This document shows positions 1-17,231 of a stretch of DNA of 25,315 nt, in pieces; position 1 is the stretch's first letter, and each line of letters opens with the position of its first letter. The notes beneath the pieces are model-generated. The model made no database searches. It was not told the origin of the DNA and saw nothing but the letters and a program-made list of their open reading frames with translations. Source of the stretch: a virus. Location: positions 1-25,315 of IMG/VR virus record IMGVR_UViG_3300033388_001351; one strand, given 5' to 3'. Made by a program: the position numbers and the translations under genes.

Positions 1-53
1 CAATGTCTATTCCAGACTCGTGTCCGTTGGAGGGTGTAACAGAATAAAATTAT

Positions 54-235
54 AGGGGTGTAGCTCATTGGTAGAGTGTCCGTACGCAAGGGTAGCAGAG
101 GTGGCCTCTTTGTTACATGCAACAGCCGTTTGGTCACGGCGGAAAACGGGAGGAAGGTAAAATGCAAGAAATGAATGGAAGAACGGCCAATAGATTCGTT
201 TTAATTCTTGTATGGTTCGATCCCACCCACCCCTG
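54..235 (+). tRNA. tRNA-like gene with a long structured insert (no normal anticodon arm)
   Basis: The 5' part is a good tRNA half: acceptor strand 54-60 (AGGGGTG), T8/A9, and a D-arm at 63-77 (GCTC, loop, GAGT). The 3' part is also tRNA-like: T-loop TTCGATC at 216-222, then 228-234 (CACCCCT), which pairs fully with the 5' acceptor. Between the halves lie about 130 nt instead of about 35. The insert has hairpins at 97-109 (AGAGG/CCTCT) and 125-140 (GCCGT/ACGGC), and a 9-bp helix 162-170/205-213 that reaches into the T-stem 5' strand. Only 3 bp of the T-stem remain (TGG/CCA). No CCA is encoded. I could not find a convincing anticodon arm, so the amino acid is unknown. It could be an intron-like interruption, a decayed tRNA, or a non-coding RNA using tRNA ends as a scaffold. 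The neighbouring gene has the same design. Confidence 0.55.
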
Positions 236-249
236 CCTTTTTAATTTAC

Positions 250-400
250 GGGAGTATAGCTCAGTGGCAGAGCGACGAACACCACAGTATACGATTGGGT
301 AGCTGGTTCGGAGGGCGGTAAAGGTTAGTTAGATGCTGTGTTGACTTCTAGATAGATGCAGTATAAACCTGGTTTGGTTCGATTCCACCTGCTCCCACCA
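250..400 (+). tRNA. second tRNA-like gene with insert, CCA encoded
   Basis: The acceptor strand 250-256 (GGGAGTA) pairs with 390-396 (TGCTCCC, one G-T wobble), followed by discriminator A and encoded CCA (397-400). The D-arm at 259-273 is canonical (GCTC/GAGC). The T-loop is TTCGATT at 378-384. About 100 nt separate the D-arm from the T-loop, some 70 more than normal. The insert contains a 5-bp stem 276-280/306-310 (CGAAC/GTTCG) where an anticodon stem should begin, but its loop is 25 nt. As in the upstream gene, only TGG/CCA of the T-stem pairs. The two inserts share the short motifs GGGTAGC (90-96, 297-303) and GGTAAA (156-161, 317-322) in the same order. An alternative pairing CACAG/CTGTG (283-287/336-340) is possible. 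Isoacceptor unknown. Confidence 0.55.
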
Positions 401-401
401 A

Positions 402-620
402 TTATACAGGCTCGACAGTAAAATGTTGAGCCTGTTCTTTTGAAAAGGCAATAGTTGTGCCCATTATTCTGAATTCGTATGCGTTGCCAGCAGTAGTGAG
501 GTGCGTTACTTCGACGCCTTCCACTAATCCCATTATCATAAGGCGCTGCACATTAGAGTCGGACACATTAACGGATGTTATAACACCTCTTTGCCCTTTG
601 CCTAGTTCAGTTATACACAT
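402..620 (-). CDS. FeoA-domain protein (72 aa)
   Basis: The whole protein is one FeoA-like SH3 barrel. It has LGKGQRGVITSV at 6-17, the family hallmark RLMIMGLVEGVEV at 26-38, and a closing FRIMGTTIAFSKEQAQHFTV at 50-69. In bacteria FeoA is a small cytosolic partner of the FeoB ferrous iron transporter, and similar domains serve as binding modules in DtxR-type regulators. No feoB is visible here, so iron transport is not implied. The domain may act as a protein-binding module or as an accessory gene affecting host iron uptake. The start overlaps the stop of the upstream gene (TAATG), so it is translationally coupled as the last gene of the late operon read from about 3541. Its 3' end overlaps the tRNA terminator hairpin. 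Confidence 0.8.
   Translation of the reverse strand: MCITELGKGQRGVITSVNVSDSNVQRLMIMGLVEGVEVTHLTTAGNAYEFRIMGTTIAFSKEQAQHFTVEPV
406..441 (+). terminator. Rho-independent terminator after the tRNA-like genes
   Basis: A 12-bp stem (406-417 with 424-435, one G-T pair) with loop GTAAAA is followed by TTCTTTT. It begins 6 nt after the encoded CCA, so it should end the tRNA-like transcript. The same bases encode the last residues of the FeoA-like protein on the opposite strand. Confidence 0.8.
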
Positions 621-1114: not shown

Positions 1115-3517
1115 TTACATGAACATGGCGTGGAAGCGAGCGGTTGTGCCTTCGTTAGAAGTACCTGCGTAACCAATGCCAATGTTGCCTAATGTGGAAG
1201 CCTGTTTGACAGCCTTCATTATTACTTCAATATTATCATGGTCGTCACTTGTTAGTTTCTTACCATCTTTACGTTTTAATGCAACTGGAACTTCAACATC
1301 GATATCGTAGTCATTGTCGCGCATCATATCAGGATCCTCTACGTCGTCAGCTTGGTCACGCCATACAACATTGTAAAAATCACTATTACGTAAATCGCTT
1401 AGTAGTTGGGCTGCGCCGCCACCAAATTCATATCCGTATTCATCTTCTGAATCATCGATGTAAAGTATAGGGACGTTATCATATTCGACCTTGTTTGTTT
1501 GGTCACGTTTGTATTTTGCTTGACCGCGTTCGCGCTTTGTGCCACCGCCACGTAGGCGCCAGTCATCGTCTTGTTGATGATCTAGTCCTGCCGTAGGCCA
1601 ATCAAGTAGTTCACCTGTTTCAGGATCAACTACGTCGTGACTTACATCATCATCTGGGCCTAGATCGGCTAGAAAACGCTCGGCGTCTTCACTAGTTGCG
1701 CCACCAGTCATTGCACTACTGCCGCGTAGCTCAGGTGGGACTTCAACTACTCGACCAACTGCTTCGTTAAGATCGTTAGAACTTGCAATAATATCATAAT
1801 GATCTAATTCACCACGAATAGAGACGCCTGCTTTACTATCGAAACTTGTAACACCCTCTCGTCGTCCAGGATACTTTATATACAGCAATCTACCATCTGT
1901 ACGTGTAACCTCGCCCATTGCGCCACCGATTTTTGACATTACTTTCTTGCCTTGTGCTAGCAAGCTCTTGACCTGTACTGAGATAGGATCTTCTTCATGA
2001 CGGAAGGTGCCCTCTTCAACATCAGTAGTTCGGTATGCTTTCTTCATACCTGCGTCACGCTTTGCCTTCCTAGCATCATATTTCTTCTGTTGTGCTTTTG
2101 TTTTAGGCTTATCTGGAGTTTGAATCGGGCCGCGCCAAGTAGTAGCTGATCGGTAGTCTTCTTCTAGCCCTTGCTCTCTTTTCTTTCTTCCTGCGTCACC
2201 GCATTTACACGGGAGTCTAATAATGCCGCTGTACGGATTGACCCAGCCGCTGCCGCGGCATGATCGGCATGTCGGATCAGCATCAAGTTTCTCTAGCTCT
2301 TCCTCGTCTTCTTCAAGTTCTGGATTGTACTTGCCGTCTGGACGATGGGTTGGGTCATATGCTAATTCGATCTGATCGTGTGACCATTCACTAAGATAAA
2401 GTGTTACAACAGGGCCGCTATACAACTTAATTTGATATACGCCTTCTTTTGAGCCGCTGTCGCTGTACTCCCAAGTTGCGTCGATGACCTTCCCTGTCTC
2501 ACCCTGATATTCGCCGCCAGTAATTTTAACCGTCTGGCCTAGCCATTGCTCGTAGTTTTCTTCGTACGGGCCAAGGTTCTTATCTTCTTCGCCTTCTTCA
2601 AGACCATCAGTCCTGTTACTCCAACTGTAGTTTGGCTTATCCATGTTGTCTAGCGTCTTGCGCAAGTTCTCTTTCCAATCAGTCTCGCCACCTGCAAGCT
2701 TATCACTCATGTATTGTGCTGCCATATCACCAAGTTGTGTGCGAATTAACTCGATCAATTCATCATCTGGCATTCTCTTATTATAATGTGCAATATCCTC
2801 GGCTGCGGCTGCAAGGCGAGAGTGGTAACTTTCATTTATGTCGTCGCATACACACTCGTCTTCTGACATTGCGCTGCAATTGCGACACCAAAGATCATTA
2901 CGATCTGAGTCACCCTCGTTAACACTCTCAAACGGGTTAGCTAGCATAAAATCATCTTCTGAATCTTCAAATGACATTGTATCAGTATTGAAGATCATAT
3001 CTTCTTCGTGGTCTGTTTCAGGATTCCACGCCATGACACTAACTTGGTTAGGCTGGTCTGTTGTTTTACCCATTGCACCTGGCTGATAACCTGGCTTGGC
3101 TTTTGCCAAATCAGCAACAATCTGTGCATAGATACGGTCGGGTACAAGTGGCCCATCTGTATCATCATCATATTCATCTTCTGATAGTCCTTCGTTAGTC
3201 CAACCAATTATGCCTTCCCCGTCGCAATTGTCACAAAATTCGCCTGTGAAGCCGCCTTCTGTACCTGTATTGCCTTCCCCATCGCATTCAGGGCAGTCGC
3301 GTTCACCTGAAGCGGCGTTTGCAGCTTGCAGAAATTTAGCACGATCAAAGCGTGGGTTGCTTTGTGCGAATACGTCCGCATATAGATTTGCGTTTGCTTG
3401 TCGAGCGTCAACGTCTTCAATTTTAGTAAGTATGTCAGCAACCATCACAAAATCTTTACGTGTATATTCTTCGTCAATCCTTTTGATTGATTCCATTAGT
3501 TTTCGCATTTCGTTCAT
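1115..3517 (-). CDS. large modular zinc-finger late protein, candidate polyprotein (800 aa)
   Basis: Start at 3517 (MNEMRKLMESIKRIDE) rather than 3559, because the gene at 11108 begins with nearly the same sequence and because the late promoter +1 is near 3541. The protein is a string of small acidic modules. CPEC/CDNC DnaJ-like zinc knuckles lie at about 75-98, CRNC/CVC at 211-224, a KOW/SH3-like segment at about 322-386 (WLGQTVKITGGEYQGETGKV), and CRSC/CKC at 417-439. A Lys-rich stretch covers 470-495 and an acidic C-terminal region about 600-760. Modules are separated by VNE|G (201), INE|S (229), LEE|G (308), LEE|D (453), VEE|G (502) and LNE|A (585), which fit T4 gp21-type cleavage. I infer a capsid-packaged protein that may be cut into pieces during head maturation. 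No enzymatic motif was found. An uncleaved structural protein is the alternative. Confidence 0.7.
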   Translation of the reverse strand: MNEMRKLMESIKRIDEEYTRKDFVMVADILTKIEDVDARQANANLYADVFAQSNPRFDRAKFLQAANAASGERDCPECDGEGNTGTEGGFTGEFCDNCDGEGIIGWTNEGLSEDEYDDDTDGPLVPDRIYAQIVADLAKAKPGYQPGAMGKTTDQPNQVSVMAWNPETDHEEDMIFNTDTMSFEDSEDDFMLANPFESVNEGDSDRNDLWCRNCSAMSEDECVCDDINESYHSRLAAAAEDIAHYNKRMPDDELIELIRTQLGDMAAQYMSDKLAGGETDWKENLRKTLDNMDKPNYSWSNRTDGLEEGEEDKNLGPYEENYEQWLGQTVKITGGEYQGETGKVIDATWEYSDSGSKEGVYQIKLYSGPVVTLYLSEWSHDQIELAYDPTHRPDGKYNPELEEDEEELEKLDADPTCRSCRGSGWVNPYSGIIRLPCKCGDAGRKKREQGLEEDYRSATTWRGPIQTPDKPKTKAQQKKYDARKAKRDAGMKKAYRTTDVEEGTFRHEEDPISVQVKSLLAQGKKVMSKIGGAMGEVTRTDGRLLYIKYPGRREGVTSFDSKAGVSIRGELDHYDIIASSNDLNEAVGRVVEVPPELRGSSAMTGGATSEDAERFLADLGPDDDVSHDVVDPETGELLDWPTAGLDHQQDDDWRLRGGGTKRERGQAKYKRDQTNKVEYDNVPILYIDDSEDEYGYEFGGGAAQLLSDLRNSDFYNVVWRDQADDVEDPDMMRDNDYDIDVEVPVALKRKDGKKLTSDDHDNIEVIMKAVKQASTLGNIGIGYAGTSNEGTTARFHAMFM

Positions 3518-6696: not shown

Positions 6697-6986
6697 TGGT
6701 TAATGACATTGTTAACGTGGACTTTAATTTATTGAAGAAGCATCCTGAGTTACAGTGGAAGCTACTTGCTGTATGTGGACAAGGGTCGAGTACATATCAT
6801 CCTTGGGTCGCACCAGTTAAGCGGCAAAAGAAAAGTAAGTTGGAAGCATTTTTGTTGAAACAGTATCCAACACTTAGCAAAGAAGAATTACATTTATTTG
6901 TCACTATCAACAGCGAAGAAGATGTTAAGAACCTCGCAAGAGATATGGGCTTAGAAGAAAAGGAAATTAAGGAATTATTTAAATGA
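6696..6986 (+). CDS. C-terminal part of the split conserved phage gene (96 aa)
   Basis: If translated separately it begins MVNDIVNVDFNLLKK at the ATG overlapping the TAA of the upstream frame (TAATG), so reinitiation is possible. Recognisable segments are LLKKHPELQWKLLAVCG, YHPWVAPVKRQKKSK and a C-terminal helical pair (YPTLSKEELHLFV, DMGLEEKEIKELF). I recall this family from marine T4-like phages without a proven function. The frame is open upstream to about the TTTTT run, giving FAYHYL before the ATG, which looks like coding sequence and supports fusion with the 44-residue frame. Confidence 0.55.
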   Translation: MVNDIVNVDFNLLKKHPELQWKLLAVCGQGSSTYHPWVAPVKRQKKSKLEAFLLKQYPTLSKEELHLFVTINSEEDVKNLARDMGLEEKEIKELFK

Positions 6987-16582: not shown

Positions 16583-16768
16583 ATGAAACTATTAGAAATA
16601 CAACGACAAATGAAAAAGCGTAGGAATTTCCGTGAAGGAAATTATGCTATTTCTGTGAACCTAGTAAATCCAGGCGATGAATTTCAAGAATTTCTAAAAG
16701 TAAAAATTACAGAAGACGGCAAGATCGTTGCAAAGTTTTCTATATCTAATATACGTATTACGAAATGA
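16583..16768 (+). pseudogene. truncated copy A of a duplicated small gene
   Basis: MKLLEIQRQMKKRRNF and the following residues are the same as copy B downstream up to DGKIVAK. After the GCAAAG ending at 16735 the sequence changes to an unrelated short tail (FSISNIRITK) and stops. The first 153 bp match copy B except for two synonymous changes (CTA/CTG Leu, CGT/CGC Arg). This looks like a truncated duplicate; the peptide may still be made, as it has its own start 1 base after the upstream stop. Confidence 0.65.
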
Positions 16769-16868
16769 CGGCACAGATGTACTTAACGGCCATCCAGATT
16801 CGCGTCGATACTACGCTAAAGAAGATTTTGAGTGGCTGGAAGGCACATGGGAAGCACCGCAGAGATGA
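16736..16868 (+). pseudogene. C-terminal remnant of a gene between repeats
   Basis: In the frame ending TGA 16866-16868 the segment reads YVLRNDGTDVLNGHPDSRRY and YYAKEDFEWLEGTWEAPQR, which looks like real protein. No start codon or coding-like sequence joins it upstream. Its stop overlaps the ATG of copy B (ATGA), the normal operon junction of this phage. It seems to be the tail of a gene whose front was replaced by copy A. Confidence 0.5.
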
Positions 16869-17231
16869 AACTGTTAGAAATACAACGACAAATGAAAAAG
16901 CGCAGGAATTTCCGTGAAGGAAATTATGCTATTTCTGTGAACCTAGTAAATCCAGGCGATGAATTTCAAGAATTTCTAAAAGTAAAAATTACAGAAGACG
17001 GCAAGATCGTTGCAAAGCCTAGTAAATCCAGGCGATGAATTTCAAGAATTTCTAAAAGTAAAAATTACAGAAGACGGCAAGATCGTTGCAAAGGCACTTT
17101 TTAAACAGTGGGCGGGTAAAGACAGGTGGGAACCACTTAGCGTTACTATCGAAAACCCAGCACAACGCATTAGTTTGCGCGAGATGATTTATAACGCAGC
17201 CACTAATGCAGGATTTTTTATCAAGGACTAA
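16865..17231 (+). pseudogene. small late gene broken by an exact 76-bp tandem duplication
   Basis: Copy B starts MKLLEIQRQMKKRRNF at 16865 and runs to DGKIVAK, then goes out of frame at 17018 because the last 76 bp are repeated and 76 is not a multiple of three; it stops at 17038. The third copy continues in another frame as VAKALFKQWAGKDRWEPLSV to the end at 17231. Removing one 76-bp unit restores one protein of about 96 aa: a leader, a beta-rich segment (AISVNLVNPGDEFQEFLKVK) and a helical end. No function recognised. It may be a live mutation, a mixed population or an assembly error. Confidence 0.65.

Follow-up and report, generated by a model that had tools for sequence, protein, structure and literature searches.

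tRNA-like phage genes interrupted at two sites point to a previously undescribed RNA family

Two adjacent tRNA-like genes, g1 and g2, together with their homologues in related contigs, point to a previously undescribed phage RNA family, for which we favour stable RNAs as the products and consider a new kind of tRNA intron less likely. The two genes lie near one end of a 25,315-nucleotide stretch of virus DNA (IMG/VR record IMGVR_UViG_3300033388_001351; the whole stretch is called the window here), and in them a tRNA frame is interrupted by insert I in the anticodon loop and by insert II inside the T-stem. All features described below are predictions from DNA.

The locus and its relatives

The 25.3-kb virus fragment encodes UvsW, a DnaB-like helicase, a 3'-5' exonuclease and a FeoA-domain protein, and its DnaB is nearest to those of the PA5oct group of large Pseudomonas phages (53% identity). 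An earlier note on this DNA had claimed two adjacent tRNA-like genes at 54–400, and this was borne out by frames at 54–238 (g1) and 250–400 (g2), each with seven of seven acceptor pairs, a D-arm and a T-loop. The FeoA-domain gene (402–620, minus strand; Pfam PF04023, E 4.9e-12) is convergent with the RNA genes and is their syntenic neighbour in all relatives. Between them lies an intrinsic terminator-like hairpin (406–435, plus strand; a 12-bp stem followed by TCTTTT); the search for such hairpins found one against 0.7 expected in shuffles, and similar sequences are present in contigs L226 and L227. Elsewhere in the window, at 16583–17093, a small open reading frame is truncated by repeats: a 164-nt unit is present twice (96% identity) and a 76-nt unit three times (100% identity), with two of the latter head to tail. 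The repeats are a recent duplication or an assembly artefact.

A DNA-pattern search led to contig L002/L125, which has three interrupted tRNA-like genes in tandem and a UvsW 93% identical to that of the window, and a search with the FeoA protein led to four further contigs, each with two interrupted genes at the same locus. The RNA genes of L228 and L229 are identical, and with identical copies counted once there are 11 distinct members spread over five phage lineages, namely the window and four IMG/VR contig groups, all beside the same FeoA gene; these lineages are related, so the 11 sequences have limited independence. Two search patterns were discarded: one containing GGGTAGC picked up L002 together with two contigs whose tRNAs are ordinary, and TATACGATNGGGTAGCTG gave matches in coding-type DNA.

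We sorted the members into A-types (gA, A226, A228 and A227), B-types (g1, gB, B226 and B227) and a looser C group (g2, gC and C228). The homologues of g1 are gB (L002:1465–1647), B226 (L226:4403–4221, minus strand) and B227 (L227:4404–4221, minus strand), and that of g2 is gC (L002:1651–1802). In the relatives an A-type gene sits just upstream; the window has only 53 nt (1–53) ahead of g1, which show no trace of an A-type gene end, and either the window lacks that copy or the contig is different at this point. The interrupted genes are clustered together and, in the relatives, lie near amber-suppressor-type tRNAs (CUA anticodon). The latter are upstream of the RNA cluster at 3157–3232 and 3679–3750 in L125 and, on the minus strand, at 6970–6895 in L226, 6406–6331 in L227 and 6713–6638 in L228; TAG remains a stop codon in some long open reading frames of these contigs, and full recoding is not implied.

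Anatomy of the interrupted RNAs

The acceptor has seven of seven pairs in every member, with double changes at six of the seven; the T-loop is likewise kept in all 11, and a D-arm (3–4 bp, GG in the loop) in 10, having been lost in A227. The earlier note took the anticodon arm to be replaced, and this proved wrong, since the stem is present in g1 (79–83/146–150) and g2 (276–280/306–310) and is kept in the family with compensatory changes in the relatives. It is the anticodon loop that insert I (25–62 nt) occupies, so that there is no 7-nt loop; in A- and B-types this insert forms helix H1 (8–9 bp, with a 7-nt loop containing YGGYC) and helix H2, and in g2 and gC it is a single short extended hairpin. 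A variable region of 3–6 nt follows the anticodon stem, and then come the T-stem GG (nucleotides 49–50), insert II and the remaining three T-stem nucleotides. In the 11-member model insert II is a branched arm of 53–66 nt between T-stem nucleotides 50 and 51, and its consensus in most members is UAAA, P1 (6–8 bp), UUAGG, P2 with the loop CGRCCAA, AAAC and P1'; the UUAGG/AAAC part is divergent in g1 and gB, and the P2 loops of the C group are different.

This arrangement accounts for the T-stem defect (TGG/CCA only) that the two genes had been said to share: TGG/CCA is indeed what is visible in both, but only because insert II splits the stem, and the missing GG, which is the start of GGUAAA, pairs with CC across the 53–66 nt insert. 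Thus, of the two motifs reported as shared, GGTAAA is homologous (T-stem GG plus the start of insert II, with GGU there in 11/11 members) and GGGTAGC is a coincidence; as a core motif the latter was rejected, being the 5' strand of H1 in g1 but hairpin loop plus 3' strand in g2, with other letters in the relatives of g1. Only gC has a local alternative for the T-stem, GGUGG/CCACC.

In g1 (B-type, plus strand), which runs from the acceptor to GCCT with CCA not fully encoded, the acceptor AGGGGTG/CACCCCT (54–60 with 228–234) has four double-changed pairs among B-type members. It is followed by the D-arm (63–77; GCTC/GAGT, GG in the loop) and the anticodon stem TCCGT/ACGGG (79–83 with 146–150, the 5' strand being nucleotides 27–31). 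Insert I (84–145) contains H1 (92–100/108–116; 9 bp, loop GTGGCCT at 101–107) and H2 (125–129/136–140); a GAGG/CCUC hairpin with a UGG loop was replaced by this 7-nt-loop register, which fits the relatives. The T-stem GG (156–157, beginning GGTAAA) pairs with CC at 226–227. Insert II (158–212) consists of UAAAA, P1 (163–169/206–212) and P2 (182–185/197–200), and the upper T-arm with the closing CC (213–227) reads TGG, T-loop TTCGATC, CCA and CC.

In g2 (C-type, plus strand), in which CCA is encoded, the acceptor is GGGAGTA/TGCTCCC, the D-stem GCTC/GAGC and the T-loop TTCGATT. The anticodon arm (276–310; stem CGAAC 276–280 with GTTCG 306–310) holds the insert I hairpin CAGT.TAC/GTAGCTG (285–305), and its sequence is nearly invariant between g2 and gC. 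The T-stem GG (317–318) pairs with CC at 388–389, and insert II (319–374) is made up of UAAA, P1 (323–328/369–374), UUAG/AAAC and P2 (333–342/355–364); P1 has four G-U pairs in g2 and is fully Watson-Crick in gC.

Comparative evidence and searches against known RNA classes

Compensatory changes, which the earlier note had proposed as a check, are present in all main helices across the five lineages. In an alignment built without structure (A6, by MAFFT), the five pairs of P1 are paired in 100% of cells in 11 sequences with 11 double-changed cells, as against 0/500 shuffles and at most 59% in slid controls; at a fixed place in dinucleotide-shuffled inserts P1 arises in 0.3–4% per sequence, and these values cannot be multiplied because the members are related. 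The full-length A-type structure (49 pairs) is 94.9% paired with 11 double-changed pairs (slid controls ≤45%), and that of the B-types (42 pairs) is 98.2% paired, also with 11 double-changed pairs (0/500 shuffles, slid controls ≤50%). For H1, 99% of cells are paired over eight members with four double-changed pairs (alignment A8); since we positioned H2 and P2 manually, the high pairing seen in them is not independent evidence. Taken singly, g1 and g2 do not have unusually stable folds (z −1.1 and +0.5), and gC has z −3.4. The more-than-chance structure predicted for the family rests on comparative evidence, single-sequence folding energies being uninformative.

In eight of the 11 members (the A- and B-types) the 7-nt insert I loop can base-pair with the terminal loop of insert II, over 5 bp in g1, gB, B226, B227 and gA and over 4 bp in the other A-types; such complementarity was not found in g2, gC or C228. 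In g1 the loop at 101–107 could thus kiss the insert II loop region containing GGCCAA. The loop pair is UGGCC/GGCCA in B-types and UGGUC/GACCA in gA, a compensatory change from C-G to U-A, and support for the interaction consists of this one double-changed pair plus the palindromic GGCC; since GGCC is palindromic, pairing between molecules is also possible. An alternative kissing interaction in g1 and gB, of GGCCAA with the H2 loop (UUGGUC), was dropped because the H1-loop pairing is conserved in more members.

In A-types the inserts are about as conserved as the tRNA body or more so. A226 and A227 are 83% identical in insert I, 71% in insert II and 59% in the tRNA part, and A227, which has no D-stem, keeps all insert helices; A226 and A228 are 100% and 95% identical in the two inserts and 79% in the acceptor strands. 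B- and C-type pairs mostly conserve the tRNA part better (g1 versus B226: tRNA part 83%, inserts 52% and 51%). The A-type conservation, the helices kept in A227 and the apparent contact between the inserts argue that the inserts would matter in themselves.

A covariance model of insert II plus the T-arm (R1) gave members 60–79 bits (63.6 bits at 156–227 in g1 and 62.3 bits at 317–389 in g2) and everything else tested 22.9 bits or less. It found no members in the more distant relatives G001 (237 kb), G002 (127 kb), PA5oct and T4, and a scan of bacterial and archaeal genomes for the insert II motif gave 10 hits, none with a fitting tRNA frame; the family is thus narrow. Normal-mode ARAGORN called neither g1 nor g2, and its intron mode gave one poor and unconvincing "Ser" reading, of g1 only, in the window and two other readings in L002. 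At E ≤ 10, Rfam had no match at all in window 30–410 (group I, group II domain V and tRNA included), and none to group I or group II in L002 1255–1830; gC matched the Rfam tRNA model (RF00005) at 44.5 bits with large insertions, and g1 and g2 had no score against it at E ≤ 10. ARAGORN found no tmRNA in the window, and Rfam tmRNA models reached 7–11 bits in L002, where the cut-off is 47.

The RNAs have in common with RF00005 the acceptor, D-arm, anticodon stem and T-loop, but they differ from it in having an unusable anticodon loop that carries insert I and a T-stem that carries insert II. In bacteria and phages, group I tRNA introns likewise place structured RNA in the anticodon loop, whereas the phage inserts are 25–66 nt long, lie at two sites and have no Rfam-detectable catalytic core, and the earlier exclusion of group I introns stands. 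Archaeal bulge-helix-bulge tRNA introns are short, occur at canonical and non-canonical positions and are sometimes more than one per gene. The phage inserts are similarly short, but the motif (a 3-nt bulge, a 4-bp helix and a 3-nt bulge) is absent at their junctions; at the junction of insert II there is a UAAA-like stretch of 4–5 nt, on the 5' side only, and then P1. The splicing endonuclease domain PF01974 is absent from all nine records searched, the member contigs among them being fragments. An RtcB RNA ligase gene is present at 161459–162586 of G001 (the record of L133), the 237-kb relative that lacks interrupted RNAs.

The stable RNAs C (species 1, 139 nt) and D (species 2, 119 nt) that end the phage tRNA cluster of T4 are alike in kind, and RNA C folds with a T-arm-like hairpin plus extra arms; their function is still described as unknown (PMC9697503). 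In the T4 genome R1 had no match at RNA C or D (best 15.7 and 14.0 bits elsewhere), and no D-arm frame or paired inserts were recognised in them, in contrast to the two defined interruption sites and mostly complementary loops of the present family. Also similar in kind, tRNA genes of Lak megaphages carry conserved inserts of unknown class, which their authors call "enigmatic" introns (Devoto 2019, PMC6784885); the part of that report used here does not describe an insert that splits the T-stem, and it is by description only that we set those introns apart.

Other unusual tRNA genes were seen in passing. G002, the record of L134 (including L223 and L224), is a phage contig of 127 kb; its roughly 50 tRNAs are divergent and cover nearly all amino acids, and odd ones with long variable regions are among them (111 nt at L224:10543 and 124 nt at L224:12386, both minus strand). 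Another candidate interrupted tRNA is a tRNA-like gene of 127 nt in an unrelated phage contig (L074:3037–2911, minus strand); its acceptor and T-arm are intact, its anticodon loop is large, and TCCGGT/ACCGGA may form a pseudoknot. A scan for acceptor, D-arm and T-loop also gave overlong frames (115 and 186 nt) at L016:10697 (plus), L097:2298 (minus) and L110:8912 (minus).

What the interrupted RNAs may be

We lean towards reading the family as stable RNAs of a group of large phages that derive from tRNA but do not decode, because the inserts would matter in themselves and because the members lack a usable anticodon loop, have a T-stem that branches, and vary between orthologues in the discriminator base (nucleotide 73 is G or C among the B-types). 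Eight of the 11 loops, read at 32–38, have no U33, and all A-types have a G-A mismatch at 31–39, which also speaks against decoding in the present form. The RNA genes would be transcribed together, ending at the terminator at 406–435, and their ends would be matured like those of a tRNA (RNase P, CCA end), which would shield the RNA. The kissing loops would clamp the anticodon end onto the side arm, and the T-stem branch and blocked anticodon would keep the RNA off EF-Tu and the ribosome. Like a more elaborate form of the T4 stable RNAs, the molecule could then present its tRNA-like body as a decoy or scaffold to a host or phage tRNA-binding protein; that the target is a tRNA-handling protein is a guess.

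The earlier note had left the choice between a new intron type and a phage RNA using tRNA ends; the RNA alternative fits better, and the intron alternative keeps some support. It is possible, if rather doubtful, that the members are precursors of tRNAs and that their inserts are introns belonging to an undescribed class, one after nucleotide 38 in the anticodon loop and one between nucleotides 50 and 51 in the T-stem. Excision of both would leave normal tRNAs, for example Cys(GCA) from B-types and Val from g2 and gC, and the anticodon stem together with GG|UGG pairing to CCACC would keep the exons in register. The inserts do interrupt an otherwise complete tRNA at exact sites, and when they were removed in silico ARAGORN called seven of the 11 members as tRNA (Cys three times, Ala, Ser and Val twice) where it had called none before; the letters GCA are kept in all four B-types, the tRNA part is better conserved than the inserts in most B- and C-type pairs, and introns of unknown class have been reported for Lak phage tRNAs (PMC6784885). 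Against this, the A-types give no tRNA after removal. U33, with the loop read at 32–38, is present in three of the 11 (B226, gC and C228) and missing in g1, gB, gA, g2 and the other A-types, and tRNA-Cys is identified by U73, of which the G73 or C73 of the putative Cys(GCA) is atypical. A227 has kept its inserts without a D-stem, Rfam detects no group I or II core, and these fragmentary contigs show no tRNA-intron endonuclease domain, RtcB being found only in the insert-less G001. That the two inserts form one bipartite self-folding splicing element, a new class of intron pair with its halves at two sites in one tRNA, assembled by the kissing loop and then removed to give a mature tRNA, appears unlikely to us.

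More unlikely again is that the full-length RNAs act in translation unspliced, as unusual tRNAs or tmRNA-like rescue RNAs: the intact acceptor and T-loop, the CCA of most members and the tRNA score of gC would suit such a role, but the Rfam tmRNA models match unconvincingly, and neither EF-Tu nor the decoding site should accommodate a T-stem with a branch and an anticodon loop with structure in it. Very improbable, finally, is decay of tRNA genes expanded by random insertions, to which the two imperfect frames (the D-arm of A227 and the incomplete CCA of g1) and the unremarkable single-sequence folds of g1 and g2 could be ascribed. The earlier argument that a shared design speaks against random decay is upheld by syntenic homologues that keep their pairing through compensatory changes in the main helices in five lineages and by conserved loop motifs, and decay is ruled out for the family because in A227 all insert helices persist although the D-arm is gone; individual members might nevertheless lack a function. 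Homologues decaying at random and a recognised intron class, the two outcomes named in advance as refuting, were both looked for, and neither occurred.

The interrupted genes make up an RNA family that has covariation support, is absent from Rfam and is overlooked by tRNA finders; its tRNA frame is broken at two sites, and the two inserts seem to fold against one another. Splicing of the inserts, if it occurs, would make them an intron class new to viruses of bacteria. The puzzle of T4 RNAs C and D gains a comparative family.
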